A stretch of DNA of 64,000 nt, taken from contig NZ_CP009455.1 of assembly GCF_000759535.1 (NCBI RefSeq), forward strand, positions 992,001 through 1,056,000, written 5' to 3'. Positions 4,270-31,554 of the stretch are shown here, piece after piece (position 1 is the first letter of the stretch; the number at the start of each line of letters is the position of its first letter). Under the pieces are notes generated by a model. That model saw only the letters and a list, made by a program, of their open reading frames with translations, had not been told where the DNA came from and ran no database searches. The stretch comes from Pseudomonas cremoricolorata. GTDB lineage: Bacteria; Pseudomonadota; Gammaproteobacteria; Pseudomonadales; Pseudomonadaceae. Made by a program: the position numbers and the translations under genes.

Positions 4270-4362
4270 CAGCTCCGCAAAATCATTGGGCGAAAGGGCG
4301 CCATTATAGGCCCAGATCGTGCTGGCTTGGAACGCGAATGACAGAGGGTACGTCGTGTATCG

Positions 4363-4387
4363 GTGGGGGCGGACGGCCCGCCCCCAC
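4363..4387. terminator. GC-rich stem-loop downstream of the OFA transporter gene
   Basis: A perfect 10-bp GC stem (4363-4372 with 4378-4387) closes a 5-nt loop. It lies 14 bases beyond the stop codon of the leftward transporter gene and before hisB, fitting transcription termination. No T-run follows, so Rho-independent action is uncertain. Confidence 0.55.
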
Positions 4388-4400
4388 GCTCAGACGACGA

Positions 4401-15885: not shown

Positions 15886-17121
15886 ATGACTCACCAAGAA
15901 CCCCTCCAAGGCCCCCACCTCCTGACCCGCTTCCAGGCCCTGGACCACTTCCTCACCCACCACCAACCCCTCTGGCGCCCCCGCCCCTTCCACCACCTGC
16001 ACCTGCCCTGGGAAACCGACCACCCAGCGCTGTCCACCTGGCTGCGCCAACAAACCCTGGAACAGGCAGAAGCCGCCGAGCACAGCGACGAAGCCCAGGC
16101 CCCACCCGAGCCCTTCCCCACCTGGGCCACCCAGGCCCAACATCTGGCCCACACCCAGGAACTGCCCACCATCGACCTGCACCCCGCCGCCCGACGCCTC
16201 GACGTCAACGTCCCCGGCCGCAAGTGGCAGCAGATCGAAGCCTTCGGCCGCCGCCTCGACTTCCAGGCCCCGCCCCGGCACTGGATCGACTGGTGCGCCG
16301 GCAAAGGCCACCTCGGCCGCCGCCTGCTGCAACCCGGCCAGCAACTGACCTGCCTGGAATACGACCCCGCCCTGGTCGACGCCGGCGCCGCCCTCAGCCA
16401 GCATCACCACCTGCCAGCCCAGCACCTGTGCCAGGACGTGCTGGAAAGCGACTGCGAGCGCCACCTCGATGCTCACAGCAGCGTGGTCGCCCTGCACGCC
16501 TGCGGCGACCTGCACGCACGCCTGCTGCAGCTGGCCAGCAGCAAAGCCTGCGCGCACATCGCCCTCGCCCCCTGCTGCTACAACCGCATTGCCGGCCAGC
16601 ACTATCAGCCACTCTCGGCCGCCGCCAAGGCAAGCCCCTTGCGGTTGTCACTCGACGACCTCGGCCTGCCACTGAGCGAAACCGTCACCGCCAGCGCCCG
16701 CACCCGCCGCCAGCGCGACCTGTCGATGAGCCGCCGCCTGGCCTTCGACCTGCTGCAACGCCAACAACGGCACACCGACGACTACCTGCCCACGCCTTCG
16801 CTGCCCGTCGACTGGCTGCACAAACCCTTCGCCGACTACTGCCAGGACCTCGCCACCCTCAAAGGCCTGACCCTCAGCGGCACCCTCGACTGGAGCGAGT
16901 GGGAAGCCCGCGGCTGGCAGCGCCTGGCCGAAGTGCGCAACCTCGAACGGGTACGCAACCTGTTCCGCCGCCCACTGGAACTGTGGCTGGTGTTGGACCG
17001 AGCACTGTTCCTCCAGCAACACGACTACGACGTGCGCCTTGGACATTTCTGCGAACACACACTGACTCCACGCAACCTACTGTTGCTGGCCGAACACAAC
17101 AGTGGAAAACCCTGTGGATAA
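15886..17121 (+). CDS. SAM-dependent methyltransferase of the PCCYNR-motif family (Methyltransf_32-like)
   Basis: This 411-residue cytoplasmic protein has a Rossmann methyltransferase core in the middle. Motif I is WIDWCAGKGHLGRRLL near residue 130, the acidic ribose-binding end of strand 2 is LTCLEYDP, and VVALHACGDLH and IALAPCCYNRI follow. The HACGD and PCCYNR motifs recall the METTL25/GSTCD-type methyltransferase group rather than common rRNA enzymes. The His/Gln/Pro-rich N-terminus (residues 1-90) is unassigned. The substrate is unknown. The gene stands alone after the ABC operon; its final codons overlap a perfect DnaA-box-like 9-mer. Confidence 0.8.
   Translation: MTHQEPLQGPHLLTRFQALDHFLTHHQPLWRPRPFHHLHLPWETDHPALSTWLRQQTLEQAEAAEHSDEAQAPPEPFPTWATQAQHLAHTQELPTIDLHPAARRLDVNVPGRKWQQIEAFGRRLDFQAPPRHWIDWCAGKGHLGRRLLQPGQQLTCLEYDPALVDAGAALSQHHHLPAQHLCQDVLESDCERHLDAHSSVVALHACGDLHARLLQLASSKACAHIALAPCCYNRIAGQHYQPLSAAAKASPLRLSLDDLGLPLSETVTASARTRRQRDLSMSRRLAFDLLQRQQRHTDDYLPTPSLPVDWLHKPFADYCQDLATLKGLTLSGTLDWSEWEARGWQRLAEVRNLERVRNLFRRPLELWLVLDRALFLQQHDYDVRLGHFCEHTLTPRNLLLLAEHNSGKPCG
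17113..17121 (-). promoter_or_regulatory. DnaA-box-like 9-mer
   Basis: TTATCCACA on the minus strand, overlapping the methyltransferase stop codon. It is a single site, so functional meaning is uncertain; two more copies lie at 29.5-29.6 kb. Confidence 0.4.
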
Positions 17122-17456
17122 GTCTGTGAACAAGCTTGTGATGAAATGCGCCAGACGTCCCTGAAATGCCGCCCTTGAGCCCCCTAGCACCCCTTCAGGC
17201 AAATGCGCAAGCCAGCAAAATCAGGCATTTGCAGCAAGCCTCCACACCGCGACCAACGGTCGCGCCTGTGCGTAAGGTTGGCATGCCCGTTGTGCATAAC
17301 GACTTTGCGCAATAGCACTAAAGCATCGTATAGGCGGCCAAAATACCCCCGGAAAATACACAAATAGCCTCACACTTTGGCACGCCAGCGCTTCAGCCCA
17401 ACCCTCACACCCGGTAGAATCCCCGCCCCGCCCAGCACCGCTCACAAGACCCGAAC
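17122..17456. other. Gene-free stretch upstream of a small lipoprotein
   Basis: This 335-bp interval shows no gene. A weak promoter candidate TTGCGC (17305-17310), 18 bp, TATAGG (17329-17334) could drive the lipoprotein at 17457. Confidence 0.4.
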
Positions 17457-17693
17457 ATGACCACCGTCCATCGCCTGACCCTGCTCCTCTGCGCCGCCCT
17501 GCTCACCGCCTGCAGCCACAGCCCAAGCACCTCATCCAGCAGCTGGCCAATCCCAGCCATGGAACTGGGCAGCGAACGCGGTCTGCCCATGGGCACCAGC
17601 CCCTGCCCAGCCAGCGGCTGCAGCCAGCAAAGCGTCTTCTTCAAGACCGCCCAGCACCAACCCGGCAACCCCCGCACCTACCGCGGCTGGTAA
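17457..17693 (+). CDS. Small putative lipoprotein, 78 residues
   Basis: A short signal sequence (residues 1-19) ends in the lipobox LLTAC, so Cys20 would be lipidated. The mature part is only about 58 residues, Ser/Pro-rich, with a second cysteine pair (PCPASGC) and a C-terminal RTYRGW. I do not recognise the family. The lipobox and the position of the ATG support a real gene. It lies upstream of tRNA-Thr in a lipoprotein-rich accessory zone. Confidence 0.65.
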   Translation: MTTVHRLTLLLCAALLTACSHSPSTSSSSWPIPAMELGSERGLPMGTSPCPASGCSQQSVFFKTAQHQPGNPRTYRGW

Positions 17694-17752
17694 GGAAATT
17701 CTCCTTTCGTCACGGGGATTTAGCTTTATCGCAGGCTAAAGCAACTAAGAGG

Positions 17753-17780
17753 TTTACAGCCGCCCCGCGATAGCTATAAT
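17753..17780 (+). promoter_or_regulatory. Promoter of tRNA-Thr
   Basis: TTTACA (17753-17758), 16 bp, then a perfect TATAAT (17775-17780), followed by a GC-rich discriminator 12 bp before the tRNA. Confidence 0.8.
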
Positions 17781-17791
17781 GACGCCCCATT

Positions 17792-17867
<76 letters not shown>

Positions 17868-17882
17868 TACGCAGTACTCAAG

Positions 17883-17909
17883 AGGCTCACCGGAAGGTGG
17901 GCCTTTTTT
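17883..17909 (+). terminator. Terminator of tRNA-Thr
   Basis: AGGCTCACC pairs with GGTGGGCCT around a GGAA tetraloop (one G-T wobble), followed by six T residues. Confidence 0.85.
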
Positions 17910-17964
17910 GTGTGTGCCGTATTCTGCCCAGCTTCATCGACTCATCACGGAACGGATAAGCCCT

Positions 17965-18597
17965 ATGCTACGGAAAGCCAGCAAACGATTGTTCCTCTTC
18001 GCGTCCATCGCCCTCTCCCTCAGCCTGTTGAGCGGTTGCTACGCCTCACGCTACTACGGCAAAACCCCACCCGATCCGGGCAAGGCCATCATCGTCGGCG
18101 CGATCACCGAAGCCTTCCTCAGCCAGCCCCACGGCCTGATAGTCGACATCGAACAGCAAGGCGAGCCAGAGACGCACCTGCGCCTGACCACCTTGGCCAA
18201 CGAAGACGACCAGCCCTCGCCCAACTTGCTGGGCCACCTCTACATGTATGAAGTACCGCCCGGAAACTACGCGTTCACCACCTGGAAGTACGAGTATTTC
18301 GCCGGCCACTCCATGGCACGGGCAACACCCGTGGTCTTCACCGTGCAGGCCGGAGAAGTCGCCTACATCGGAGACCAACGCGCCGACGACCTCAACCTCT
18401 GCCTGTCCAATCTAGACAAGGCCGAAGGCACCTTGCAGGCGCTCAAGCGCAAGTATCCCGTACTCAATGGCCGCACGATCGTCAACCTGACCGACAAAAC
18501 CGCGTTCCAGGACTGGCCAAGCTCGGACGCCAAAGACAACGGTAAAGGCCTCTGCGCCTTCTGGGCCAGCCTGCCCGCTGCTCCATCGAAGCAGTAA
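17965..18597 (+). CDS. Putative lipoprotein, 210 residues
   Basis: The ATG at 17965 starts a signal peptide ending in the lipobox LLSGC near residue 23. The mature domain contains LYMYEVPPGNYAFTTWKYE and a later TVQAGEVAYIGDQ, the pattern of small beta-sandwich surface lipoproteins related to DUF2846. No precise family is recognised. It is followed after 35 bp by a second lipoprotein in the same orientation, so the two are probably co-transcribed. A similar protein occurs at 25272 on the far side of the AT-rich defence segment. Confidence 0.75.
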   Translation: MLRKASKRLFLFASIALSLSLLSGCYASRYYGKTPPDPGKAIIVGAITEAFLSQPHGLIVDIEQQGEPETHLRLTTLANEDDQPSPNLLGHLYMYEVPPGNYAFTTWKYEYFAGHSMARATPVVFTVQAGEVAYIGDQRADDLNLCLSNLDKAEGTLQALKRKYPVLNGRTIVNLTDKTAFQDWPSSDAKDNGKGLCAFWASLPAAPSKQ

Positions 18598-18632
18598 CCA
18601 CCCCGCTTCAACGCGCGCAAGGAATCACCCCC

Positions 18633-19154
18633 ATGAAACGCCCCGCCGTACTCTGGCTATCCCTGCTAACAATCCTCACCCTGCTGACCGCCTGCACCAG
18701 CGGCCCCGACCTCAAAGGCCAACCCTTCTTCACCCCCCCAGCAGAATCCAGCCCCAACCAAGCCACCCTCTACTTCTACCGCACCGCCGCCAGCATCGGC
18801 GCCGGAGTTGCGCCAACCATCAAGATCGACGGCACCGCCGTCAGCAGCTTGCCATCCGGTGGCTACTTCAAAGTCACCCTTCCCGCCGGCACACACACCA
18901 TCGAATCGACTTCACCACCGTTTATTAGCGGCAAAGTGAGCAAACGATTCGACCTCGCGGTGGAGAACGGGAAGGTGTATTTCATTGCCGATCAGGTTAG
19001 CGATTCCGACTTTAAGGACGGGCAGACCTTGGATGGGGTGGACGAGGCCAGCTTTGGGCTTATGCCGTTTTACTTCAGGTATGCGCTGGTGCCGACGGAA
19101 GAGGCGTTGCGGGCGATTAAGTGGTGTCAGCGGGTGCCGGTTGGGGGGAAGTGA
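18633..19154 (+). CDS. DUF2846-type lipoprotein, 173 residues
   Basis: The signal peptide (residues 1-20) ends in LLTAC. The mature domain has the DUF2846 pattern: ATLYFYRTAASIGAG, then KIDGTAVSSLPSGGYFKVTLPAGTHTIES, and later VYFIADQV. The family is predicted to be an outer-membrane or periplasmic lipoprotein of unknown role. Codon use becomes poorer in C toward the 3' end (after about 18950) as the AT-rich segment approaches. It is the last gene before the composition shift. Confidence 0.82.
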   Translation: MKRPAVLWLSLLTILTLLTACTSGPDLKGQPFFTPPAESSPNQATLYFYRTAASIGAGVAPTIKIDGTAVSSLPSGGYFKVTLPAGTHTIESTSPPFISGKVSKRFDLAVENGKVYFIADQVSDSDFKDGQTLDGVDEASFGLMPFYFRYALVPTEEALRAIKWCQRVPVGGK

Positions 19155-19388
19155 TGGTGTGGGGTTGATCTGAACAGACGCCCCAGCTTAAGTGATGCGC
19201 ACCGGTTGCCGAGAGGCGTCCTGACGCGCCGATATGAGGGTTCTTGTGAGCGCTGAGCAGTGATCGTCGCTATCACTTGGCCTTCGCCACGCATAGGGCG
19301 CTCAAGGCGCGATGTCAAATGCTTAATGGCATCTTCGGCATGGATCCTGTGCTCAGCTGCCAACTACTTTGGTTATTGAGCATGTCCA

Positions 19389-19409
19389 CGATATGCGATA
19401 TGCGATATG
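19389..19409. repeat. Tandem repeat (CGATATG)x3
   Basis: Three perfect head-to-tail copies of a 7-mer, at the left edge of the AT-rich segment. Confidence 0.85.
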
Positions 19410-19549
19410 AACCACTTGCTAGCCGGCACCCCGACCAGCTCGCATAGCGCGCGGCAATGTCCCTCTACGCCACGACGAATGCGTTTCTAAGAGCGTTCGC
19501 TAAGCACTGGCATCGATAAAATCATTGGACATGGCAGAAACCACATTAT

Positions 19550-19581
19550 GTATTTTCTGGATACGAAAATACAGTACTGTA
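19550..19581. repeat. Paired dyads downstream of the helicase gene
   Basis: A perfect 8-bp inverted repeat GTATTTTC/GAAAATAC (19550-19557, 19565-19572, 7-nt loop) overlaps a 12-bp palindrome TACAGTACTGTA (19570-19581). It lies 150 bp beyond the stop codon of the leftward helicase gene. It could be a protein-binding or recombination site; it lacks the U-tract of a classic terminator. Confidence 0.55.
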
Positions 19582-19727
19582 CCGTTTACACGCTTTAACG
19601 AAAAATGACAACCGAACTTATTAAGCCATTACTTAGTAAAATACTTGTCTACCAGATGCACACCCATACTTAGTTACTATTGCCTGACGCGACCTCATAG
19701 CCCCAGGCACAGCTTTGATTTAGAAAC

Positions 19728-21653
19728 TCAATCTAGACTTGTAACATTTTCATCTCCAAACCAAACCTTCGCCTTCTGAATAACGGCTTCAGATGGCGAA
19801 TGATAAAACAATGCTAAATTTGACTTCGCACGGGTGCAACAAACATACAGAATTTTTCGCGTACGGCTTACCACACTCTCTTTATCCGCACGATCAGTGA
19901 ACAGATAGTCAAAATTATAGGAATTCCACCGACCATTATTGAGAACAACTAGAACATCGGAAAACTCTCTACCTTTGGTTTTATGCTGAGTAGAAAAGGG
20001 TGTAAACCCCTCAAGATATTCAAATAGCTTTTGAAATTGTGCAAATGGAAGCGCGGCAACTTGATTATAAATATAGCGTTTTGATTCAACAAATAACTTA
20101 AGACGATCATCAATTCTAACGATTCCCCCAGCATTAGCTTCATCGATGACTTGCTGGACCGTTTTGCCGTCGACCCTAGATAACCTTACAATCTCCTCTT
20201 TCAACCTAACTTTATCTTTTTTCGACGTAATGGCATGCTCAGTTATCCGAACAAACTCGTTGAATCTCCCCTCCAAGTACAACTGAACATTGTTTTGTAT
20301 TTTAAATAAATGCTTTATAAGATCATCTCTGTTACCACCGCCACGCCCCAACTCCCCTCTATCTGATTTCTGATCATCTATTAGCTGGTCCTTATTCACA
20401 TATAGAGAAGCAAGCTCAGTATATTGGTAGCCCAGCGCTTCATCATATACGGCTCGATGCTCCGCGATATAATCCGCCATGCCATCAGTGGGCTCAATGT
20501 TTTTTAAGGTTTTACCTACCTTCCCACTCTTCAAACCGACTAAAACTTCTCCAAATGTTTTCCCATCACAGATGAAATCAGGCTCACTCCTCTTAATATA
20601 GTTTTTTACTCTACGGACATACTCTAAAATCTTGTCACCATCATAAATTCTCATTAACTCACTGAAGCCTGCCTTTGCAGCGATTAGGTTATGGGTAAGA
20701 TTCAGCTCTTTCGCGCTTGAAGGTTCGGAAAAGTCCCAGCCAAGAAATCTCTTTACAACATTAACATCATCATTCGAAGAGTATATAAACTGTATGCATC
20801 CGTTCTTTACACTTCCGTCCTCGGCCATATTGGGAGCATTCAAGTCTTTAGAAGGAACTTGAAAAATCCCATCATTTCTAAGTTTGTTTGCCAAATCGAT
20901 TATATTTTTTGGGTTCCTCCTGTTTTCTTCTTTCTTTATTTCCCTTACCTGCCCAACACCCTCCCCTTTGTATAAATCTAAATCCCCTATACCTTCCTCA
21001 TAAATTGCTTGCATTGCATCGCCGAAAAACCCAACAACATTTGGGCATCCGACTCTAGTCAGCTGTGTGAGAAGTATGTCCACAACCTCAGCCTGAGTGT
21101 CCTGATATTCATCCACAAGAATATATGGATAGCAATCTTTCAGAATTCTACATAATTTGTCATATCGTTTAAACATCTCATTAGCAAGAACGATAACCTC
21201 ACTATGAGAAATAATCCCCTCCCTAAATTTTACGTACTCCTTATACCTAACATCCCCATCAATTTCAGCCAAGCTTGTCGGTTCGCCGTTAGCATCCAAA
21301 ATTTTGAAATTTGATATATCACTGTCATTAATCAGCGATAACAGAACTTCTTTTAGCTCAATTTGGAAGTGCTTAATTACTCCCCAAAGAAAGTCATGTA
21401 TCGTAGAAACGTGTAGATTTGGATGACTGGCTCTACTCTCAATCTCCCGGACCGCCGCGTTGGTGTAGGTTATACACGCTACGCGCGCTAAAGGCTTGAG
21501 GGTAACCAAGCTCGTTATAACCTCTACCAAAGAATATGTTTTTCCACTTCCAGCACCACCACTCAGTAAAAAACTCTTGCCCTCATTGATAGCATCTAAA
21601 ATCTTTCTAGTCTCTTCACTAACGCCCTCTAAATTTTTCATTTGCGCAACCAT
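19728..21653 (-). CDS. UvrD/PcrA-like SF1 helicase, Gabija GajB-like, long form
   Basis: This 641-residue helicase is the second gene of a two-gene defence-type module. Motif I GGAGSGKT is at residues 32-39, Ia TYTNAAVREI near 62-71, and II VDEYQDTQ at 180-187. III is GFFGDAMQAIYE and IV-like ENRRNPKNI. Motif V is TQHKTKGREFSDVLVV and VI LYVCCTRAK near the C-terminus. It is longer than archetypal GajB (about 490 residues). The extra length lies mainly in a charged region around residues 330-530 without recognisable motifs. The frame is open to 21689, but ATG 21653 has a strong AGGAGG seven bases upstream, inside the 3' end of the nuclease gene. The 16-bp overlap implies coupled translation. 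AT-rich codon use marks it as acquired. Confidence 0.8.
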   Translation of the reverse strand: MVAQMKNLEGVSEETRKILDAINEGKSFLLSGGAGSGKTYSLVEVITSLVTLKPLARVACITYTNAAVREIESRASHPNLHVSTIHDFLWGVIKHFQIELKEVLLSLINDSDISNFKILDANGEPTSLAEIDGDVRYKEYVKFREGIISHSEVIVLANEMFKRYDKLCRILKDCYPYILVDEYQDTQAEVVDILLTQLTRVGCPNVVGFFGDAMQAIYEEGIGDLDLYKGEGVGQVREIKKEENRRNPKNIIDLANKLRNDGIFQVPSKDLNAPNMAEDGSVKNGCIQFIYSSNDDVNVVKRFLGWDFSEPSSAKELNLTHNLIAAKAGFSELMRIYDGDKILEYVRRVKNYIKRSEPDFICDGKTFGEVLVGLKSGKVGKTLKNIEPTDGMADYIAEHRAVYDEALGYQYTELASLYVNKDQLIDDQKSDRGELGRGGGNRDDLIKHLFKIQNNVQLYLEGRFNEFVRITEHAITSKKDKVRLKEEIVRLSRVDGKTVQQVIDEANAGGIVRIDDRLKLFVESKRYIYNQVAALPFAQFQKLFEYLEGFTPFSTQHKTKGREFSDVLVVLNNGRWNSYNFDYLFTDRADKESVVSRTRKILYVCCTRAKSNLALFYHSPSEAVIQKAKVWFGDENVTSLD

Positions 21654-23776
21654 TCCAACCCCTCCTGGATATAGTGAGGTGTTTTCCAATTGGAAAATTC
21701 AGATTTATCATCCGGTATACTATTAAGCAAAATCTCAATCGCTAACGAAGGCTTTTTGCCAACTGCCTTCTCTGCAAATTCGAATGCACAGCACTCGTTA
21801 TTTACGTATTTATTAAACCACTTAGGCGTTAGAGAGGGAAACTTCTCGTGGTCCGTTCCAAGGAGTGCTTTGTTAATTGAAAAAAAAGCATCCTCGAAGC
21901 TTCTTCCATGATAGCCGTTATCTTCAGTTTGATATGCCAAGAAAACAGACCCAGCGACATCAACTTTCCACTCACCTCCGACTTTAGATAAAGCCTTACT
22001 TTCAGCACCAAGTGAAGTAAAGTAGCCCAAGTCCTCTCTAACCTTGCCGTGATAAAATATCAACGATCCATTCGCTGTGTGGTCTGCCGCAGGGTCATCA
22101 GGACGACATTTTCTGGTCTCTATTTTTTGATTACCATTTTTATACCGTTGCGGAGTAACCCCATCCCTTTCAAAAAGTAGCTCTTTAATGCCGCTATCTA
22201 TGTCGGTCAGGACTAGAGCTTTAATGCCAATGAAATGAATAAACTTCTCAAAAATCTGCGCATGCGCTCCTACCTCCACAATCGAGACATTCTGAGAAAG
22301 TAGCGGCATGACACCAGTATCTGGGAACTCTTTATCAAGTTTTCGCATCATTGCTGGCAAAAGAATCTTTTCAGTGTCACCCTCAACCAGTATTGCTTTG
22401 TCAGCAAAAAACAGCTCAGCACGATTCAATGTAAGATATTGCTTGAGAAATCTATAGCAAAGTTCACCTTGAGCATTATCATCCGCACCATCAGACGAAT
22501 ACTCAGACTTGAGAGACTTGAGATTTTTTGCGTCTACGCTGTTAGAAAAAGGCGACTTTCTCAAATACTTAATATCATCAAAATCACACTCCGCCACTAT
22601 ATGAGAAGAATGCGTACTTATAATCGTTTGAAGATGAATTTCTATACCATCCTCTCTCACCCTACTTTCTTCTAACAACGACTTAATATTCTTAATAAAA
22701 GTATATTGCATTTGAGGATGCGTATGCGCTTCCGGCTCCTCAATAAAGAGCAAATTAATAGTAGCAGGACTTTCCTTGCTAGGCCGCCTGAAAGAGCTCA
22801 TCAGCATCTCTATCTCAAAAATCATACTAATTAAGTTCATATACCCGAGACCATTAAAGTGCTCTGGCAGATCATGCGAACCATGGGTATACATTACTGT
22901 TGTATTCCCATCCAGCAACTCTCGATGCTGCAAGGTAGATGCAATTTTTATATGCGTCTCCGACAATCTTGAACCCCCAAACTTTGCCACCTTACTCAAC
23001 AATCCAGAAAACATGTTCTGATAGATTTCACTCAGCTCTGTGTCGGTTGACCGTAACTGCTTCTTGAAACCTTCAACAGCTTCCTGCTGCTCTTGGTTCT
23101 CAGATGTCTTTTTATAGATAATTGCAGTCTGAGTGGAAAGTGTCTTATCATTGTCTCTATTCGTAACACTCCGCTTCGCACCGATAGACCTGAATGAGAT
23201 GACATTAGCCAGGCTAATATTTTCCTTATTTAAATCCGTGAACACTTCCGGATCACTATAGGAAAAGCTTTTTTTCCGAATCTGGTCAAAATAAATGTGC
23301 TGGTTTTCTTTAAGGAACAAACTAGGGTCGTTGTCATATTTGTCTTTTATAGCACTGAAGTCATTCCGCATTGCCGTCAACTGGGAGTAGCTAATCAAAT
23401 ACTCAAATCCGAGCACAATATGATTGTCATCAGGATCCAAACTCATTATCAACTGACTTACCGCTGACAAATCATCTAAATCATCATACTCAATGCACAA
23501 CTTTAAAGTTATACCTAAGGGTAAATAGTCACTCTCCAAACCTATGGGCTTGACTCCGCTAACCAAGTCACTTAGAGCTGCTTTTAGATCAACGTTAAAA
23601 TCGTCAAAAACTATTTTATTCTTATCAGATGAGTTTATAAATTTTTCTAATGCGGAAAGCAGCGAAGTTTTTCCGCTATTGTTTTTACCCAGCACCAGAG
23701 AAAGATTACTCTCAAGATCAAGAGAAAAATTCTTCAACAAACGAAAATTGCCGACTTCAATCCTTACTATTTTCAT
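21638..23776 (-). CDS. OLD-family ATPase with TOPRIM nuclease domain, Gabija GajA-like, long form
   Basis: This 712-residue protein has an ABC-type ATPase half: Walker A GKNNSGKT at residues 30-37, Walker B NLLFIEEPEAHTHPQM, and the H-loop ISTHSSHIV. A TOPRIM domain follows, with the catalytic Glu in ILVEGDTEKILLP and the acidic pair in VLTDIDSG. An ATPase-TOPRIM protein followed by a UvrD-like helicase is the class 2 OLD arrangement known as Gabija. There GajA cuts DNA and is held off by normal nucleotide levels. Archetypal GajA is near 580 residues; this one is larger, with extra length in the ATPase insertion and the C-terminus. ATG 23776 is chosen because AAGG lies six bases upstream; a TTG two codons earlier is the alternative. 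Base composition is far more AT-rich than that of the neighbours. Confidence 0.8.
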   Translation of the reverse strand: MKIVRIEVGNFRLLKNFSLDLESNLSLVLGKNNSGKTSLLSALEKFINSSDKNKIVFDDFNVDLKAALSDLVSGVKPIGLESDYLPLGITLKLCIEYDDLDDLSAVSQLIMSLDPDDNHIVLGFEYLISYSQLTAMRNDFSAIKDKYDNDPSLFLKENQHIYFDQIRKKSFSYSDPEVFTDLNKENISLANVISFRSIGAKRSVTNRDNDKTLSTQTAIIYKKTSENQEQQEAVEGFKKQLRSTDTELSEIYQNMFSGLLSKVAKFGGSRLSETHIKIASTLQHRELLDGNTTVMYTHGSHDLPEHFNGLGYMNLISMIFEIEMLMSSFRRPSKESPATINLLFIEEPEAHTHPQMQYTFIKNIKSLLEESRVREDGIEIHLQTIISTHSSHIVAECDFDDIKYLRKSPFSNSVDAKNLKSLKSEYSSDGADDNAQGELCYRFLKQYLTLNRAELFFADKAILVEGDTEKILLPAMMRKLDKEFPDTGVMPLLSQNVSIVEVGAHAQIFEKFIHFIGIKALVLTDIDSGIKELLFERDGVTPQRYKNGNQKIETRKCRPDDPAADHTANGSLIFYHGKVREDLGYFTSLGAESKALSKVGGEWKVDVAGSVFLAYQTEDNGYHGRSFEDAFFSINKALLGTDHEKFPSLTPKWFNKYVNNECCAFEFAEKAVGKKPSLAIEILLNSIPDDKSEFSNWKTPHYIQEGLEWLRK

Positions 23777-24556
23777 AACCAACCTTAAATTAGAAAAATA
23801 CTACATTGCATTTATATACCAGACGCATCTCATCCTTGGCATAGAAAGACCGATAGTTAATCAACAAAAGTATATCTATCGGCGTGCCTCGTGCTGATAT
23901 GAATTAGCTTAAGCGTTTAAGCGGCTTCTCTGCATTCATGCTAACCAAACCTATTGCTGCCAAGTTTTGTAAAAACCACGGGTGCTGGCCACTTGCCAGA
24001 CAGTAACTAAAGCTTGGGGCAGTCGGCAAGAGGCTTCAACACGGACAGCGGGGATCACACTCGTAAATACGGAGGCTGTAGTGGATAGCAGGATAGATAT
24101 GTAGAGACAGCTTTTTATTAATTGCTAAAACACCAATAAAAACATGTAGTTAGAGAAGATCTTGAGTCTTGGGGCCGCGACCCACACAAGCACAGCCCCT
24201 CTCGCCCGATACATCCGGTCCCGCCCCCTCCCACTTCCCACATCCCTTTCCGAAACATCTGACTCTTACCCCATATCAATCCCCCGTCCTAGGAAATACC
24301 CTACACCCCCTGTCGATCCGCGTCTGATTGCGCTGGGAAATCCACCCTCCTACCCTCGCTGGGTCGCTGAAAACTTCAGTGATCGGGGTGTGGAAACCTT
24401 GGCAATCATCGATCGACCTGCCGTTATGGCAGCTGTGCGCGGGAGGCCTTTGGCCTACCGGGTTTCTCGATGTCCGGTTTTCCACCCCGCGTACAGCTGC
24501 CACCCTTCGTGTGGAAACGATGGTTGGTAGCTTTCATTACCTCATCGAGCCTACTT
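23777..24556. other. Gene-free interval: defence-module promoter side, composition switch and structured leader
   Basis: These 780 bp hold no convincing gene. The left 350-400 bp are AT-rich and must contain the leftward promoter for the nuclease-helicase pair; a TATAAA-like -10 lies near 23812 but no -35 is clear. Near 24160 the composition switches back to high GC, marking the right edge of the acquired segment. The right part contains a strong paired element (24404-24525), listed separately. Confidence 0.55.
24404..24525 (+). ncRNA. Candidate structured RNA leader (multi-branched stem) upstream of the small gene at 24557
   Basis: The core is a 16-bp helix, 24428-24443 with 24486-24501, having a single G-T wobble. 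Inside it sit two hairpins: AGGCC/GGCCT with a 3-nt loop (24444-24456) and ACCGG/CCGGT (24457-24477). Outside, AATCATCG (24404-24411) pairs with CGATGGTT (24518-24525), leaving two matching 16-nt unpaired arms. The whole ends 31 bases before the start codon of a small gene that has no obvious ribosome binding site. It could be a cis-regulatory RNA or an interspersed palindromic element. No promoter was identified, so transcription is inferred. Confidence 0.5.
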
Positions 24557-24799
24557 ATGAAAAAGATCGTCCCAGATCCACCGCACCTGACCCTGATCCA
24601 GACCTCATCCCTACCCGCCGACCTCATCCCACCCGACGCGCTCGCCGTCGCCAACGACCTTCTCCTCTCCATTCACCAAGCGCTCAACGACTACTGCCAC
24701 ACCCACCCTACCGCTCCTGCCCTGAATAAGCTGCGAAACGCAGCCCACAGCGCCAACACCGCAAGCGCCCTCATCACCCACGCGCTCACCGGCATGTGA
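24557..24799 (+). CDS. Small DUF6124-like protein paired with a DUF3077 gene
   Basis: This predicted 80-residue acidic-to-neutral helical protein starts MKKIVPDPPHLTLIQ. The layout is a KKIVPDPP head followed by an Ala-rich helix (LRNAAHSANTASALITHAL). It is typical of small Pseudomonas proteins of unknown function that sit before DUF3077 genes. The upstream frame is open to 24470, but ATG 24557 begins the recognisable head. No clear Shine-Dalgarno precedes it, and a strong RNA-like structure lies just upstream. It precedes the DUF3077 gene by 25 bases and is probably co-transcribed with it. Confidence 0.65.
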   Translation: MKKIVPDPPHLTLIQTSSLPADLIPPDALAVANDLLLSIHQALNDYCHTHPTAPALNKLRNAAHSANTASALITHALTGM

Positions 24800-24824
24800 T
24801 ACGGCCATGGAGGGAGGTTCAGCC

Positions 24825-25097
24825 ATGAACGAAAAACACCAACCAAACGTAACCGTCGGCATCCAACCTTTCTGCGAACTCGACGAAAACCCAGCGCATC
24901 TGTTCCGGGTCATGCCCGGCATTCCCTTCGAACAGGCGTACGAGCAGGTCTCGGTGCTGCTGGGCTATATCCGCCATCTGCTTCATGAGGGGGATCTGGC
25001 GGATGATCATAAGTTGCTGGGGGCTGCGGGCTACTTGAGCAGCTTGGCCAAGGCGGTCATGGATGACATCGAGGTTGCCCGAGCAGGCCACCCTTAA
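24825..25097 (+). CDS. DUF3077 family protein, 90 residues
   Basis: The motif HLFRVMPGIPFEQAYEQVSVLLGYIRHLL and the C-terminal LLGAAGYLSSLAKAVMDDIE match the DUF3077 pattern: a short beta part (FxVxPGI) and two helices. Function is unknown; these genes are abundant in multiple copies in P. putida-group genomes. ATG 24825 is chosen over the frame-opening codon at 24807 because GGAGGGAGG lies about 6-7 bases upstream. A terminator-like hairpin follows at 25106. Confidence 0.78.
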   Translation: MNEKHQPNVTVGIQPFCELDENPAHLFRVMPGIPFEQAYEQVSVLLGYIRHLLHEGDLADDHKLLGAAGYLSSLAKAVMDDIEVARAGHP

Positions 25098-25105
25098 GGC
25101 TCACG

Positions 25106-25129
25106 AGCCCCTACTAAAATAGGGGCATT
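25106..25129 (+). terminator. Terminator-like hairpin after the DUF3077 gene
   Basis: GCCCCTA pairs with TAGGGGC around a 6-nt loop (25106-25125), followed by ATTTC. Confidence 0.6.
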
Positions 25130-25271
25130 TCACCATCTAAGGCATCACTGTCCCCCGGCATCGTTTTACTACCGAAATCCGGCCCTGGCATAATGCCGCT
25201 CAGTTAAGCCTTTGAAGGACAGGCTTTTCGACCAATTCGATCGCTTCAATAACAGCACAGGAATGGACTCT

Positions 25272-25796
25272 ATGGCTTTTCGGCTGCTAGGCCTCACGGC
25301 AATACTTCTAATGACATCGGCTTGTTCGAACCATCAGTACAAGACCTATGTCGGCAGCCTGGACGACCCGGCGATTCAGGTTCTGGATTTATCCGAGGGC
25401 GCAGCTAATGCGCCAATTCTCTACTTCGACACGCGGCAGTTCCGAGAGCTAGGCGTGCCCTTTCACCGTCTGCTGCTCGCCGTGCGCGTGGATGGCAAAC
25501 AGCTCCCTGATGCGGGCAAGCATTCCATTCTCAATTACTCGGGCTACCAGGCACTGCGTCTAGCGCCAGGCGAACACTCGGTGGAGTGGTGCTGGGTGTC
25601 GATGAACAAGCTGGGCACGGGCGGTGGCAAGTGCGGCTTTGGTGCTCCGGCTCTCAACTTGGAAGCCGGTAAGCACTATCTTGCGACGTGGTCTTCATCT
25701 ACCTCGGTCACCGGACTCAGGGGCCGTGAGCAGATGGAGATCAGCGTCTCCTCTTATGTGCTGGAGCAAGGGACTAATAAGCAGGTATTTCCCTGA
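25272..25796 (+). CDS. Putative lipoprotein, 174 residues (DUF2846-like fold)
   Basis: The signal peptide MAFRLLGLTAILLMTSAC ends in a lipobox. The second ATG (25272) is preferred over 25263 because AGGA at 25259-25262 is well spaced only for the second. The mature domain contains LLLAVRVDGKQLP, then YQALRLAPGEHSVEWCW and HYLATWSSS. This is the same strand pattern (DGK, then aliphatic-PGxH) as the lipoprotein at 18633. A disulfide-capable Cys pair (CWVS and GKCGFG) is present. Function is unknown. It stands alone on the right side of the defence segment. Confidence 0.78.
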   Translation: MAFRLLGLTAILLMTSACSNHQYKTYVGSLDDPAIQVLDLSEGAANAPILYFDTRQFRELGVPFHRLLLAVRVDGKQLPDAGKHSILNYSGYQALRLAPGEHSVEWCWVSMNKLGTGGGKCGFGAPALNLEAGKHYLATWSSSTSVTGLRGREQMEISVSSYVLEQGTNKQVFP

Positions 25797-26170
25797 TCAC
25801 CCGGTAGTCGAATCACTGGCAAACCTTGTTGGCAAAGGCCCAACGCGACACGCGGGTCGAGGCTGGGGTGACGCGGACAGTTCAACTTTCCACAGCGCAT
25901 TCCAGCATCAATCAATCGGCACCTTTTTATCCCTGATTGGAGATACATCAAAAGGGAGCTGATCTATTAGATTCGCGTGTGCAACTCTCGAGTTAATAGA
26001 TCTCTCCCCTTTTCCCCGCGATCTGCGCAACGCAGCCCACAGAGCTCACTTTCTCGCTACACACCAACGCGGCCGCAGAACGGTCGAGGTCGTTTGCGGG
26101 AGTCGCGGCTGTCACGGGGTAGCCGCTATGCTTGGCGAAGTCCTGAAGTTGGGCGGTCTAGCGGCGAGAC
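25797..26170. other. Gene-free stretch with a long hairpin
   Basis: These 374 bp hold no gene. The main content is the large imperfect hairpin at 25950-26013; the rest shows nothing recognisable, and no promoter for the following cyclase gene could be fixed. Confidence 0.5.
25950..26013. repeat. Long imperfect hairpin
   Basis: Two stacked arms pair: AAAAGGGAG (25950-25958) with CTCCCCTTTT (26004-26013, one bulged C), and GATCTATTA (25961-25969) with TAATAGATC (25994-26002). The loop is 24 nt. The right arm ends in TTTT, so it could terminate rightward transcription of the lipoprotein. The arms also allow a remnant of a small inverted-repeat element. Confidence 0.6.
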
Positions 26171-26176
26171 GTGCGT

Positions 26177-27589
26177 ATGAAGTGTTTTCCTCAGTCAAGT
26201 CGTTGGATGCGCTGGGGCCTGCCGGCGCTGGCGTCGGGTGTGTTCTTTGCCGTTGCGTGGGGTCTGTTGCAGCGCTTCGATGAGGATGCGCGGCATATCG
26301 AGCGGGTGCGCACCGGTGAGGTGGCGATGTCGTTCGCGGTGTCGGTGGAGAAGGTGCTGGAGCGGGCGCTGACGGCCAATCGCACGTTGGCGGTGATGGT
26401 CTATCAGGGCCATGGCGAGGTGCCAGACTTCACGGCGTTGGCGAGTTTTCTGTTGCCGCTGTACAAGGGCGCGTATGCGTTGTCGCTGGCGCCGCAGGGC
26501 ATCATTCGGCAGATCGAGCCGTTGGATCGCAATCTGCTGGTGCGTGACCACGATCTGCTCGAGGATCTGGACCGCGCCGAGGTGCTCGGCGCGCTCGATC
26601 CGGCCGAGACGGTCATTCAGTTTTCCGGGCCGTTCGAGCTGATCCAGGGGCCGATCGGTGGCATCGGCATGCTGCCGGTGTTTCTGCCAGACGCTGAGGG
26701 CACGCCGCGTTTCTGGGGGTACACCGTGGTCACGCTGATGCTGCCCGAGGCCCTGGAAGACGCCAACCTGCCGGCCATCGAGGCGCAGGGCTATGCCTAT
26801 GCGCTGGTCGGTGACGATGCAGAGACGGGTGAGCCGCGGGTGTTGCAGCGCTCGCAGGCGGCGCTGGCCGATGAGCTGTGCCGTGATGTGCAGGTGGGGC
26901 AGACGCGCTGGAAGCTGTGCGTGGCGCCGCTCAAGCCGTGGCGCAGTCAGGCCCGGCACTATTTCGAGATCGGCCTGACCTTGCTCGGCAGCGGCCTGAT
27001 GGGCTGGCTGGTGTATGCGCTGTTGAGCCTGCGCCAGCGCCGCGAAGAACTGCTGCAGCAGGCGTTGATCGACCCGCTGACGGGCCTGGCCAATCGCCGC
27101 CTGATGCTGCAGCGACTAACCCAGGCGCAGGAGCGCGCTCGCCGCAAGGGCACGCGCTTCGCTCTGGCATTGCTCGACCTGGATGGTTTCAAGGGGGTCA
27201 ACGATCGCTTTGGCCATGCCCACGGCGATGAGGTGCTGATCAATACGGCCCAGCGCGTACTGGCCACCATCCGCGTGTCAGACACGCTGGCACGGCTGGG
27301 CGGTGATGAGTTCGTGCTGATCATGGAGGACGTCAGCGGGCGCGAGGAGTGCCAGTGGGTGCTCGACCGAATCGTCAGCGCCGTGCGTGAGCCGCACCGC
27401 TTCGCCACCGGCACCGCGCAGGTGCAGGCCAGTGTCGGTGTGGTGATCAGCGATGGTGGCGCGGCCAGCGACAGCGACCGCCTGCTGCGTCTGGCCGATG
27501 CCGCCATGTACGAGGCCAAGGCGCTGGGCAAGAACCGTTATGTGTTCGCCGAAGACGGCCTGTTGCGCGAGCCGCTCATCACCTCTTGA
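26177..27589 (+). CDS. Membrane diguanylate cyclase with CHASE sensor and GGDEF domain
   Basis: This 470-residue inner-membrane protein makes cyclic di-GMP. An N-terminal helix (residues about 12-30) is followed by a periplasmic CHASE domain, with YALSLAPQGIIRQIEPLDRN and FSGPFELIQGPIGGIGMLPVFLP. A second helix (about residues 258-280) leads to the GGDEF domain. The active site is intact, GGDEF at about residues 375-379. The inhibitory I-site RVSD lies five residues before it, so product feedback is expected. DPLTGLANR marks the domain start. No EAL domain is present. A GTG six bases upstream of the ATG is the alternative start. CHASE domains bind small extracellular ligands such as cytokinin-like molecules or peptides; the ligand here is unknown. 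Confidence 0.93.
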   Translation: MKCFPQSSRWMRWGLPALASGVFFAVAWGLLQRFDEDARHIERVRTGEVAMSFAVSVEKVLERALTANRTLAVMVYQGHGEVPDFTALASFLLPLYKGAYALSLAPQGIIRQIEPLDRNLLVRDHDLLEDLDRAEVLGALDPAETVIQFSGPFELIQGPIGGIGMLPVFLPDAEGTPRFWGYTVVTLMLPEALEDANLPAIEAQGYAYALVGDDAETGEPRVLQRSQAALADELCRDVQVGQTRWKLCVAPLKPWRSQARHYFEIGLTLLGSGLMGWLVYALLSLRQRREELLQQALIDPLTGLANRRLMLQRLTQAQERARRKGTRFALALLDLDGFKGVNDRFGHAHGDEVLINTAQRVLATIRVSDTLARLGGDEFVLIMEDVSGREECQWVLDRIVSAVREPHRFATGTAQVQASVGVVISDGGAASDSDRLLRLADAAMYEAKALGKNRYVFAEDGLLREPLITS

Positions 27590-27823
27590 TTGAACGCCGG
27601 TAAGCCACTCAGTACTTCCAGATCACCGAACCCATCATTGACTTGATCGGCCTACAGAGCACGCATCAGATGCCCGGTTTTCTGAAATCACTGGGTTCTT
27701 CTGCTTTTTAGGGCGCTGATGCCTACCGCCCCTGGATCCTCACGAGCAGGGGCTTGGCATGAAGGGACGGAAACGAGTGAATTCCCAGATTCGACAACGC
27801 TTGACGGGCGTCCGGAGCAATAC

Positions 27824-28639
27824 TCATTTCATCGGGATATTCGGCCGTTCACCTGCTATCAGCGTCTTTTCCAGCTTCTTGTTATCGCGGGTAATGACCA
27901 ATTTCAGCGCCTGGCCGGGTACGTAGGGATAATCCTCGAACACGTAAGGGCTGGTGACGGTTTTGCCATCTACCGATTCGATGATGTCGTTTTCCCGCAG
28001 ATCCGCCCGGTCAGCCGGGCTGTCATAGATCACCATGTCGATCCGCGCACCATTCGCTGTTTCAGGAGTCTTCGCCAGCGTTGGCGAAAGCCTCGTGAGT
28101 TGAACACCTAGGCCTGTATTGGTGCGTATCCAGTAGAAGGCACCGTAGTCATAAATGTCGACCGTGCTGGATACGTATCGAGTCTCGTACAGCACCGTCC
28201 TGGTGGTCGCGGTCTCGCCCGTAGCGCGGCCCTTTTCGTCTCTGACCGTCGTAACGGACTCGCTATTGCCTACGGGCTCCGACACCTCTCGGGTTCTCGT
28301 ATAGCTACGGGCAAGCTCATGATCGATGATCACCACGAGATCGGCACCGATGCTTTTCGCCTGCTCGACGGCCATCGAGTCTGCTGCATCATCTTCAGTT
28401 TTGAATGATGAGTAGCCCAGCGATTGAAAACCTCTACGGCGCAGACTTTCATTGGTCGATTCCAGTTCGGAGTAGACTATCCGACTGATATCTGGCTGTT
28501 CTGGCGCAGGTGCCACGCGATTGGTGCGAATGTCGTAGCCATAGTTGTTCGCTACATAAGATCGCGAATACGGGTTCACAGTGCAGCCCGAAAGCGCAAT
28601 CAACGCCAGCACACCCGCCAGACCTGACCTGAAATCCAT
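27824..28639 (-). CDS. Lipoprotein with C-terminal PDZ domain
   Basis: This 271-residue protein starts at ATG 28639, preceded by GGAG, with a signal peptide ending in the lipobox LSGC. The middle (residues about 60-130) has a region similar to small proteins that report on protein identity or stress (SLRRRGFQSLGYSSF, then AKSIGADLVVIIDHEL). The C-terminal 90 residues form a PDZ-like domain: LGVQLTRLSP, then IYDSPADRADLRENDIIESVDGKTV. PDZ domains bind peptide C-termini, so a role in envelope quality control is possible. No protease motif is seen. It is convergent with the diguanylate cyclase. Confidence 0.78.
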   Translation of the reverse strand: MDFRSGLAGVLALIALSGCTVNPYSRSYVANNYGYDIRTNRVAPAPEQPDISRIVYSELESTNESLRRRGFQSLGYSSFKTEDDAADSMAVEQAKSIGADLVVIIDHELARSYTRTREVSEPVGNSESVTTVRDEKGRATGETATTRTVLYETRYVSSTVDIYDYGAFYWIRTNTGLGVQLTRLSPTLAKTPETANGARIDMVIYDSPADRADLRENDIIESVDGKTVTSPYVFEDYPYVPGQALKLVITRDNKKLEKTLIAGERPNIPMK

Positions 28640-28737
28640 TCCACTTGCTCCTTGGGCGATGTGTGGGTCCGATGATAGGTAGCACTCTAACATCATCACC
28701 GAGGGTGTAGACCTTTCGCCCCATCACTCGCCCCTCC

Positions 28738-29379
28738 TTACACTCCCACCCCAGCCATCACCTCCTGAGCGAACTCCGGCCACAACACCCACAGTCCCAG
28801 GCCAATCAGCGCCGAGCCGATCACCCGGTCGAGCATGCGCTGGCGCGCCAGCAATCGCTGCCGTACCCCCGGCGCTGAGATGAACACCGCCACCAGGCTG
28901 AACCACAGCCAGTGCGCCGCAGACATGAACAGCCCATAACCAAGGCTGCTCGCCCAACTGCTGCCGGCCTGCACCACCTGGCTGTACACCGCGACGACGA
29001 AGAGCATGGTCTTGGGGTTCAGGGCGTTGGTGAGAAAACCTTGGGCGAAGGCCTGGCGGTTGGACAGTGCCGGACCGCTGGCGGCATCGATGCTGAGGGC
29101 CGAGGTGCTGGTCAGGGATTTGTAGCCCAGGTAGAGCAGATACCCGGCGCCGAGCAGTTTCATGGCCAGGAACAGCAGCGGCGAGTGGGTGATGATCAGC
29201 GCGATGCCGAACACGGCGTAGCACACATGCACCTGTACGCCGCAGGCGATGCCGAGGGCGGCCAGCAGTCCGTGACGGCGGCCGTAGGCGTAGCTGGTGC
29301 GGGTGACCATGGCAAAATCAGGGCCGGGGCTGATGACGGCGAGCACGGTGATGGCGGCGACAGCGATGAGTTCGTTCAT
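28738..29379 (-). CDS. LysE/RhtB family amino acid exporter
   Basis: This 213-residue protein has six hydrophobic segments and a typical LysE start, ITVLAVISPGPDFAMVTRTS. AFAQGFLTNALNPKTMLFVVAVYSQ is the other family signature. Members export amino acids such as threonine, homoserine, lysine or arginine. ATG 29379 is chosen over an upstream codon (29409) because the family homology starts there. It is divergent from a LysR regulator across 276 bp, which suggests control by it. Confidence 0.92.
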   Translation of the reverse strand: MNELIAVAAITVLAVISPGPDFAMVTRTSYAYGRRHGLLAALGIACGVQVHVCYAVFGIALIITHSPLLFLAMKLLGAGYLLYLGYKSLTSTSALSIDAASGPALSNRQAFAQGFLTNALNPKTMLFVVAVYSQVVQAGSSWASSLGYGLFMSAAHWLWFSLVAVFISAPGVRQRLLARQRMLDRVIGSALIGLGLWVLWPEFAQEVMAGVGV

Positions 29380-29530
29380 TGGCTGTATCCATCGACGATG
29401 CTTTTGCACAGATGATTCGCAATATCACACTGAGCACGCTGCCGCTGTGGGGATTTTCGCAATTCAACGTGAAACATTGGGCAGCCAGGCAGTGCGCCGG
29501 CTGATGCCGCTATAGATGGGCCGAACATGG

Positions 29531-29612
29531 TTATCCACAACCTCGTCATCCTTCCGTAGACTCACCGCAAGCCCCGGTCGCGACACAGCATGCCGAGCCA
29601 CCCTGTGGATAA
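29531..29612. promoter_or_regulatory. Two perfect DnaA-box-like sites in inverted orientation
   Basis: TTATCCACA at 29531-29539 (plus) and TGTGGATAA at 29604-29612 (minus) lie 64 bp apart in the lysE-lysR spacer. Both match the strict 9-mer consensus. No AT-rich unwinding element or dnaA/dnaN genes are near, so this is not oriC; a DnaA titration or regulatory role is possible. Confidence 0.45.
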
Positions 29613-29655
29613 AAATCGATTTCTCGTCGCGCGTATCTGTGAGTAATCATCGCCC

Positions 29656-30540
29656 ATGAAGCTTCCACCGCTTGCCGCCCTACAGTTCTTCAATGTCGCC
29701 GCCCAAACCGAGAGCTTCGTCCAGGCCGGGCGCTTGCTGCATATCACCCACGGCGCGGTGAGTCGCCAGGTGCGTCAGTTGGAAGAGAGCCTCGGCGTGA
29801 CGCTGTTCGAGCGGCGTAATCGGGCGATCTTTCTCAATGAGTCCGGGCGCAGGCTGTATCAGCTGACCGCGCCGTTCTTCGAGGACTTGCGCCAGACCGT
29901 GCTCGACCTGCAACAGCCGAGTCGTGACGAGGTGCTGGTGGTGTCGTGCGAACCGACCATCGCGATGAAATGGCTGATCCCGCGCCTGGCGGATTTCCAC
30001 AGCCAGCACCCTGGCATTCAGGTGCAACTGCTCACCGCAGGCGGGGCAGTGAACTTTGCGCGAACGGGGGTCGATGTGGCGGTGCGGCGCGATGACTTCT
30101 ACTGGGGCGAGGGCATTCACAGCGCCACTCTGTGCGAAGAGTGGGTCGGCCCGCTGTGCACGCCTGGGCTGTGGCACGGCCAAGAAGCGCTGGATGGCCT
30201 GTGCCTGCTGCACAGCCGCACCCGCCCACAGGCCTGGGACCACTGGCTGCGCCTGCGCGGCATCACGCTGGCCCAGTCAACGCGCCAGGACTTCGAGCAC
30301 TTCTACCTCTCGACCCAGGCAGCCGCTGCCGGGCTGGGCGTGTGCCTGGCTTCGGCGTTGATGGTGGAAGATGAATTGCGCGCTGGGCAGTTGCTCGCGC
30401 CGCTGGGTTTCGCCAAGGATGGCTCGCGCTATTGCCTGCTGGCTGCCCAGCCGTTTGCCGACAGCAGCAAAGCGACGGCCTTCCTGCACTGGATCACGGC
30501 GCAGATGCAGGCCAGTACCGAGCGCTTGCCGCTACTGTGA
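29656..30540 (+). CDS. LysR-type transcriptional regulator, GcvA-like
   Basis: This 294-residue regulator has an N-terminal winged helix-turn-helix (residues about 1-65: PPLAALQFFNVAAQTESFVQAG, then HITHGAVSRQVRQLEESLGVTLFERR). A periplasmic-binding-like effector domain follows. The PPLAAL opening and AVSRQVRQLE are characteristic of the GcvA/AmpR subgroup. It probably regulates the divergent LysE exporter and itself; its effector is unknown. The DnaA-box-like sites lie in the shared control region. Confidence 0.9.
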   Translation: MKLPPLAALQFFNVAAQTESFVQAGRLLHITHGAVSRQVRQLEESLGVTLFERRNRAIFLNESGRRLYQLTAPFFEDLRQTVLDLQQPSRDEVLVVSCEPTIAMKWLIPRLADFHSQHPGIQVQLLTAGGAVNFARTGVDVAVRRDDFYWGEGIHSATLCEEWVGPLCTPGLWHGQEALDGLCLLHSRTRPQAWDHWLRLRGITLAQSTRQDFEHFYLSTQAAAAGLGVCLASALMVEDELRAGQLLAPLGFAKDGSRYCLLAAQPFADSSKATAFLHWITAQMQASTERLPLL

Positions 30541-30549
30541 ACGCGCGCC

Positions 30550-31554
30550 CTACCCCACAGGCTCATCGAGCAACCCCTGGCTGCGCAGCGCCTGCAAGGC
30601 AGCCTCCAGTGTCTGCATGCCGGCGGCGGCGCTGGTTTGAAGGGTCGAGTGCAGCTGCGCCAGGCGCCCTTCGCGAATCAGGTTCTGCACTGCAGGCGTA
30701 CCCACCAGCACTTCGCGCGCCGCTACCCGGCCGCCGCCCTTGCGCTTGACCAGCACCTGCACCAACACCAGGCGCAGCGACTGCGCGAGCATGGCCCGTA
30801 CCAACGGTTTTTCCTCGGCGGCGAACACCTCCACCAGCCGCTCGATGCTGCTCACCGCCGAACGGGTGTGCACGGTGCCCAGCACCAGGTGCCCGGTTTC
30901 CGCGGCGCGCAGGGCCAGGCGGATGGTCTCGAGATCGCGCAGTTCGCCGAGCATGATGATGTCCGGGTCTTGCCGCAGGGCGCTGCGCAGGGCCTGGGCG
31001 AAGTCGCGGCTGTGGCGGCCGATTTCGCGCTGGTTGATCAGGCTGCGCTGGCTGCAATGAAGGATTTCCACTGGGTCTTCGAGGGTGATGATGTGCAGGG
31101 CGCGGTCGCGGTTGAGCTGGTCGAGCAAGGCCGCGAGGGTGCTGGACTTGCCACTGCCGGTCGGCCCGCCGACCAGCACTAGGCCGTCGCGCAGCCCTGC
31201 CAGCAGCGGGTAGATCGGCTGCAAGCCAAGCGCCTCGACGCTCGGTACATCGTCTGCCAGCAAGCGCAGGCTGGCTGCAGGGCCCTGCTGTTGGCGGAAC
31301 AGGTTGAGGCGCACCCGGCCACGCTCGGGAACGGCCAAGGCCAAGTCGAGTTCATCGCTGCTGGCCCACTGCCGTTGCTGCTCGGCGTCAAGGAACTGGC
31401 CAAGGCCGGTGAACAGTGCGTCGGCGCTCAGCACCGGTAAATCCAGGCGCTGCAGCTCGCCATCGATGCGCAGCAGCGGCGCTTCACCTGCTGCCAGGTG
31501 CAGGTCGGAGGCCCGCGCGTGGAGGGCGCGGGCCAGCAGGTCGGTCACGTCCAT
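30550..31554 (-). CDS. pilT: PilT/PilU-like type II/IV secretion ATPase
   Basis: This 334-residue protein is a retraction-type ATPase of the type IV pilus. The N-terminal domain starts MDVTDLLARALHARASDLHLAAG, a PilT signature. Walker A is GGPTGSGKSSTLA near residue 130, the Asp box IITLEDPVEILH, Walker B DIIMLGELRD, and the His box GHLVLGTVHT. The open frame runs to 31731, but ATG 31554 fits the family start. It is divergent from yggS, the common pseudomonad arrangement. No other pilus gene is in the window, and PilU rather than PilT cannot be excluded. Confidence 0.9.
   Translation of the reverse strand: MDVTDLLARALHARASDLHLAAGEAPLLRIDGELQRLDLPVLSADALFTGLGQFLDAEQQRQWASSDELDLALAVPERGRVRLNLFRQQQGPAASLRLLADDVPSVEALGLQPIYPLLAGLRDGLVLVGGPTGSGKSSTLAALLDQLNRDRALHIITLEDPVEILHCSQRSLINQREIGRHSRDFAQALRSALRQDPDIIMLGELRDLETIRLALRAAETGHLVLGTVHTRSAVSSIERLVEVFAAEEKPLVRAMLAQSLRLVLVQVLVKRKGGGRVAAREVLVGTPAVQNLIREGRLAQLHSTLQTSAAAGMQTLEAALQALRSQGLLDEPVG

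Follow-up and report, generated by a model that had tools for sequence, protein, structure and literature searches.

The Gabija system of Bacillus cereus VD045 consists of two genes, of which the first encodes an ATPase-TOPRIM nuclease (GajA) and the second a UvrD-like helicase (GajB). The active-site residues of this GajA are named in PMC10781630, and the OLD classes are set out in PMC12796447. A Gabija system of Providencia stuartii with a GajA of 736 amino acids (aa) is reported to block T4, its defence being weakened or abolished by the substitution E465K (PMC12935923), and that of Pseudomonas aeruginosa PA14 is described as targeting phage DNA ends free of RecBCD (PMC12407980). Here, we analysed a 64,000-nucleotide stretch of Pseudomonas cremoricolorata (contig NZ_CP009455.1, positions 992,001 to 1,056,000; hereafter the window), in which two genes, gajA and gajB (Table 1), form a real, intact Gabija system of the already known long form. 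Our reading, which we consider highly probable, is that the anti-phage system is complete and sits in what is left of an integrative island targeting tRNA-Thr.

The initial annotation had described two overlapping leftward genes as a Gabija-like pair of a class 2 OLD nuclease and a UvrD-like helicase. Both open reading frames (ORFs) were found at that position on the minus strand, and both are intact. GajA matched the PADLOC profile PDLC00079 with 1009 bits (profile positions 1-701 of 702) and GajB matched PDLC00135 with 775 bits (positions 6-602 of 603), scores for which chance can be ruled out as the source, and PADLOC thus names both as Gabija proteins over nearly their full length. Pfam domains above the cut-off were AAA_15 and OLD-like_TOPRIM in GajA and UvrD-helicase in GajB; an NCBIfam scan of the pair gave nothing above the cut-off. 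In structure comparisons the fold of GajA matched Gabija GajA and that of GajB matched both UvrD/PcrA/Rep and GajB, and neither profiles nor folds placed the proteins outside class 2 OLD/GajB. Protein searches kept 5988 of 7997 scored candidates as relatives of GajA and 4228 of 7999 as relatives of GajB, indicating a large family. The mechanically called ORF of gajB starts at a TTG (653 aa); the ATG at 21653 is the likelier start, because AGGAGGGG precedes it and the resulting 641 aa equal the length of the closest database copies. With this start, the two genes overlap by 16 nt.

The motifs noted initially in the two proteins are complete and strongly conserved across 71 aligned sequences (for GajA, the window included). 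In GajA, seven of the nine positions of the Walker A stretch (G30-S38) are invariant, and the Walker B stretch FIEEPE (344-349), the H-loop residue H389 and the TOPRIM residues E465, G503, D525 and D527 vary little or not at all. Paired by motif with the active-site residues of B. cereus GajA, the last four would make up a complete TOPRIM active site (Glu, Gly, DxD). The superfamily 1 (SF1) helicase motifs of GajB, namely the P-loop SGGAGSGKT (31-39), DEYQ (181-184), GDAMQ (211-215), NRR (244-246), QHKTKG (556-561) and CCTR (605-608), are likewise invariant or nearly so, except for A213. The motif names given to stretches of both proteins are those that we take to apply.

The locus therefore resembles that of B. 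cereus VD045 in the gene pair and its order, in the combination of ATPase-TOPRIM nuclease and UvrD-like helicase and in the TOPRIM Glu, Gly and DxD residues. It differs in that the sequence of GajA is only remotely similar, GajB is closer in fold to UvrD/PcrA/Rep, and GajA and GajB exceed the last residue numbers of the solved B. cereus chains (574 and 494) by 138 and 147 residues, respectively, in agreement with the excess of about 130-150 residues noticed at the outset. The comparison attempted with B. cereus GajA yielded no residue-level alignment in which the extra residues could be placed. Long GajA proteins are not rare, as several of the PADLOC GajA models listed span 670-752 positions (PDLC00079 has 702). 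The suggestion of a distinct subtype consequently stands as far as a sequence subgroup is meant and falls for a new form, given these long models and the tested 736-aa GajA in print; no named Gabija subtypes turned up in the open-access literature. The P. stuartii system (PMC12935923) likewise has a long GajA, and its tested residue, E465, bears the same number as the invariant TOPRIM Glu of the window, a match of numbers that is suggestive only. Anti-T4 activity is reported for that system and would be expected of the window copy by analogy. With the PA14 system on PAPI-1 the window pair shares the genus and the acquisition on a mobile island, although PAPI-1 is, unlike the window's island, a large conjugative element, and the helicase motif is DESQ there and DEYQ here (PMC12407980; likened by description). 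As a clean long-form pair remote from the solved B. cereus GajA, the window system could show which Gabija properties are general.

The two genes are constantly paired in the loci compared. On genome contigs, 298 stretches encoded a relative, and in all of the best 80 of these, kept for locus comparison, a gajB ORF directly followed gajA (80/80), split over two ORFs in four cases (L069, L074, L100 and L128). The pair was also present in two of three viral-contig loci (IMG/VR), the third ending at the end of gajA; one viral locus (L130) has the same coordinates and scores as a locus of Vibrio sp. AND4 (L064). In L001, which is the window, and in L002, both on the minus strand, gajB overlaps gajA. 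Going by the names in their record titles, carriers include members of Pseudomonadota, Bacteroidota, Bacillota and further groups. The identity matrices of GajA and GajB correlated with an r of 0.88 over 74 loci (those left of the 82 with a pair once scores had been filtered and one duplicate dropped), compared with a maximum of 0.16 in 500 permutations, which shows joint inheritance, a signal not separable from common descent. No constant third gene emerged from the island ORFs sought in these loci, a comparison that was not a systematic search. The PF12835-type ORF and two small ORFs of the islands described below matched only in L050-L053 (the 90-aa one is not listed in L050), and the island integrase matched also in L079 and L087.

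The distribution of the pair within the genus is patchy. At E 1e-100 or better, a relative was present in nine of the 398 genomes sampled, one of them being that of the window and the others showing identities of 88-89% (three), 62% (two) and 51% (three), as expected of acquired DNA. Ten relatives, picked from DNA matches covering a methyltransferase-like gene and not drawn at random, all had the tRNA-Thr end and all lacked the pair (18.5-19.5 kb taken). More distant GajA-like genes, at eight loci of the genus and order, showed 27-48% identity over the matched parts; seven had open frames of 607-770 codons and one was broken in two (458 + 280), and a GajB-like ORF adjoined all of them except L155. 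The AT-richness reported for the pair was evident in GC values of 0.398 (gajA) and 0.401 (gajB) against 0.574-0.679 in five flanking genes, and also at third codon positions (GC3; 0.407 and 0.379 against 0.689-0.837). In 250-nt steps, GC drops near 19.5 kb and recovers near 24.0 kb. The pair is thus neither universal in relatives nor core-like in composition and, together with the att-bounded integrase island found in close relatives, this makes it very probable that it was acquired, as had been proposed. Plasmid carriage was considered and rejected: megablast of window positions 17000-27000 against plasmids gave only about 1% coverage, over the tRNA, among the matches listed (20 of 114 records).

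Island ancestry is visible in close relatives, the named Pseudomonas carriers being P. chlororaphis PCL1601 (L050), MWU13-2100 (L051), PDM04 (L052) and RIT288 (L053). The block that they have in common starts about 400 bp upstream of gajA and extends for about 8.6 kb among L050, L052 and L053 and about 6.3 kb with L051. Its far end in L052 and L053 is tRNA-Thr(TGT), adjoining a gene for a 440-aa tyrosine integrase, and a second integrase-like ORF (PF12835) lies further into the island in L053, with relatives in L050 and L052. At the near end, exactly at the start of homology, sits a copy of the tRNA 3' end, GGCACCAGGAGTCGAA in L050, L051 and L052 and with one base changed in L053. In the L052 and L053 islands the pair is thus flanked by two att copies, one at the intact tRNA-Thr(TGT) and one at the near end, and accompanied by an integrase gene. 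L050 has the integrase and both repeats with only the 3' part of the tRNA, and in L051 the integrase end is missing from the stretch examined. Beside gajB, the intact islands also encode a 119-aa ORF with repeated YDY-containing units (L053, 12170-12529, minus strand), which had no Pfam or PADLOC match. Comparable Pseudomonas islands described at the tmRNA site (I23, I44 and I55; PMC12595487) likewise combine a tyrosine integrase with defence cargo, which in I23 includes Gabija, and show short direct repeats where they adjoin a tRNA-like gene; the islands reported here differ in their site, tRNA-Thr(TGT), and measure about 8.6 kb.

An integrase of the island family was present in 61 of 199 genomes of the genus at E 1e-100 or better. 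We examined 31 integrase loci (30 fetched and the window genome's own copy), and in 19 of them the end of tRNA-Thr(TGT) lay 177-190 nt before the integrase start; at the remaining 12, ARAGORN called tRNA-Asn(GTT) in five, tRNA-Thr(CGT) in six and no tRNA in L189. The window genome's own integrase relative (58%) lies elsewhere, beside tRNA-Thr(CGT). Across these loci (L164-L194) one integrase family is found beside tRNA-Thr(TGT), tRNA-Thr(CGT) or tRNA-Asn(GTT), the pattern that switches of target tRNA among sub-clades would leave. Other relatives were inspected at their tRNA-Thr(TGT) site, where five of ten hand-picked ORFs matched PADLOC models and the other five matched nothing. The defence-like cargo differs between loci, with a PARIS-like pair in L138, a dCTP-deaminase-like protein in L136 and, from candidate families, an NsnB-like protein in L135 and a DUF626_VIII one in L139, in each locus beside integrase genes or fragments. 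Defence hotspots described for Pseudomonas lie at tRNA-Pro, at the tmRNA and within large islands (PMC10250203 and PMC12629846), and no title on a tRNA-Thr defence site was found among those listed from the open-access literature, which is weak evidence of absence. Comparison with relatives points to the tRNA-Thr(TGT) beside the RNA-methyltransferase-like gene, with its small integrase islands of varied defence cargo in Pseudomonas, as a place to seek uncharacterised systems.

In the window itself, one gene relic and one decayed repeat remain in place of an integrase gene and two att copies, and we therefore regard this copy as a relic and not an intact island. The terminator that follows its tRNA-Thr is the same as in the relatives L133, L134, L135, L142 and L143, and is succeeded by two lipoprotein-like genes. 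Island-like sequence starts again only at what remains of the 90-aa ORF and continues through gajB, gajA and the leader to the att-like sequence. The ORF relic, 1.5 kb beyond the terminator, was recognised by tblastn (E 4.4e-6, 35% over 86 aa) and has stops in the three-frame translation. For the att-like repeat, at least 13 matches are expected at a rate of 1.0e-4 per position and strand, and 13-14 of 18 matches to the tRNA-Thr 3' end are also reached at nine further places in the window; it is therefore its position that carries weight, not its score. In the alignment it occupies the same columns as the att copies of L050-L053. No integrase relic was detected at 17868-19727, where a single 13-base match came from a short-word search and the E values of protein matches exceeded 8. 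L135 is arranged in a comparable way: its integrase fragments lie at 4252-4672, and it has an att copy at 8423. In relatives, the left and right flanks of the window are found far apart, for example at 0.33 and 0.98 Mb in G124, indicating a rearrangement point within 17900-30600; because of this separation, no clean empty site could be shown for this copy. Descent of the pair from a small integrase island at tRNA-Thr is thus likely, an origin that adds to the initial annotation.

Upstream of gajA, the leader matched only the window and close-carrier loci among all loci examined with nhmmer, five close Pseudomonas carriers in all. These carriers share the continuous sequence CCAAGCTTTAG(C/T)TACTGTCTGGC and an inverted repeat, GCTTAA-TTAAGC, which are possibly operator or integrase arm sites. 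A conserved RNA was considered and rejected, as no match extended beyond close carriers and the covariation term of the consensus fold (six sequences) was only -1.79 kcal/mol.

By analogy with the Gabija systems studied so far, GajA and GajB would assemble into a single large complex, quiescent as long as nucleotide is bound. A phage that exposes DNA ends unoccupied by RecBCD, or that drains the nucleotide pool, might then act as the trigger, upon which the helicase GajB would engage the DNA and GajA would cut it, presumably protecting the host. The anti-phage activity of the window copy is likewise suggested by this analogy. A bolder reading, which we would sooner doubt than adopt, is that the long form represents a mechanistically distinct Gabija subtype that handles DNA ends unlike that of B. 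cereus, its full-size UvrD-like helicase and enlarged GajA sensing or processing them differently, and that its vehicles in Pseudomonas are small islands of one family, with integrase clades directed at tRNA-Thr(TGT), tRNA-Thr(CGT) or tRNA-Asn, so that tRNA-Thr(TGT) would be a defence landing site.

That the pair was once a Gabija system but is now stranded, silent and in decay, its protection of the cell lost, seems improbable to us. The other island genes are indeed lost or decayed, and promoter-like sites were not in excess in a simple scan (6, with 10.9 expected), yet neither frame is broken and every motif is preserved, with identities to close carriers of 88-89% for GajA and 83-84% for GajB, which suggests selection, and the leader upstream of gajA has been retained. 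Slightly less probable still is an OLD-family nuclease and helicase acting mainly in host DNA repair or against plasmids and not phages. In its fold, the helicase resembles UvrD and PcrA, both of which serve in repair, and the archaeal OLD-family protein Cran1 is described as acting in the cell cycle (PMC12796447). Against this reading stand the PADLOC assignment as Gabija, the presence of closely related copies on islands whose site also carries defence-like cargo of other kinds, and a patchy distribution (9/398) and foreign composition unlike those of a housekeeping gene; a housekeeping operon was rejected on the last two. That the nuclease belongs to another OLD class, as a retron (Eco8, class 3) or PARIS (AriA) effector with an incidental helicase neighbour, is largely refuted and scarcely credible, as the NCBIfam Eco8 effector model scored 57.5 bits against a cut-off of 250, the AriA model covers only residues 3-396 whereas the GajA model covers the whole protein, and gajB is the neighbour in all 80 genome loci compared. 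We thus retain the complete long-form Gabija system on an island relic as the preferred reading.

Table 1. Features of the Gabija locus and its surroundings (positions in the window)
Feature	Position	Strand	Basis
gajA (ATG start 23776, stop 21638): class 2 OLD nuclease, ABC-type ATPase head and C-terminal TOPRIM, 712 aa	21638..23776	-	PADLOC, Pfam, fold
gajB: UvrD-like SF1 helicase, 641 aa	19728..21653	-	PADLOC, Pfam, fold matches
tRNA-Thr(TGT), 3' end being the island target in relatives; native terminator follows	17792..17867	+	ARAGORN, downstream comparison
Relic of the 90-aa ORF found downstream of gajB in intact islands, with stops	19404..19640	+	tblastn
Intergenic leader upstream of gajA	23777..24160	-	nhmmer
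att-like repeat, decayed, 13/18 matches to tRNA-Thr 3' end	24164..24181	-	match rate, alignment

Two further observations concern the neighbourhood of the module. The two lipoprotein-like genes between tRNA-Thr and the module (17908-19154, plus strand), the second of which is DUF2846, resemble DNA that lies away from the methyltransferase-like gene in G079 and G072. Just to the right of the module, at 24422-24507 on the plus strand and upstream of a DUF3077 gene, Rfam identified a C4 antisense RNA (RF01695) with 79.4 bits, above the gathering threshold of 45.

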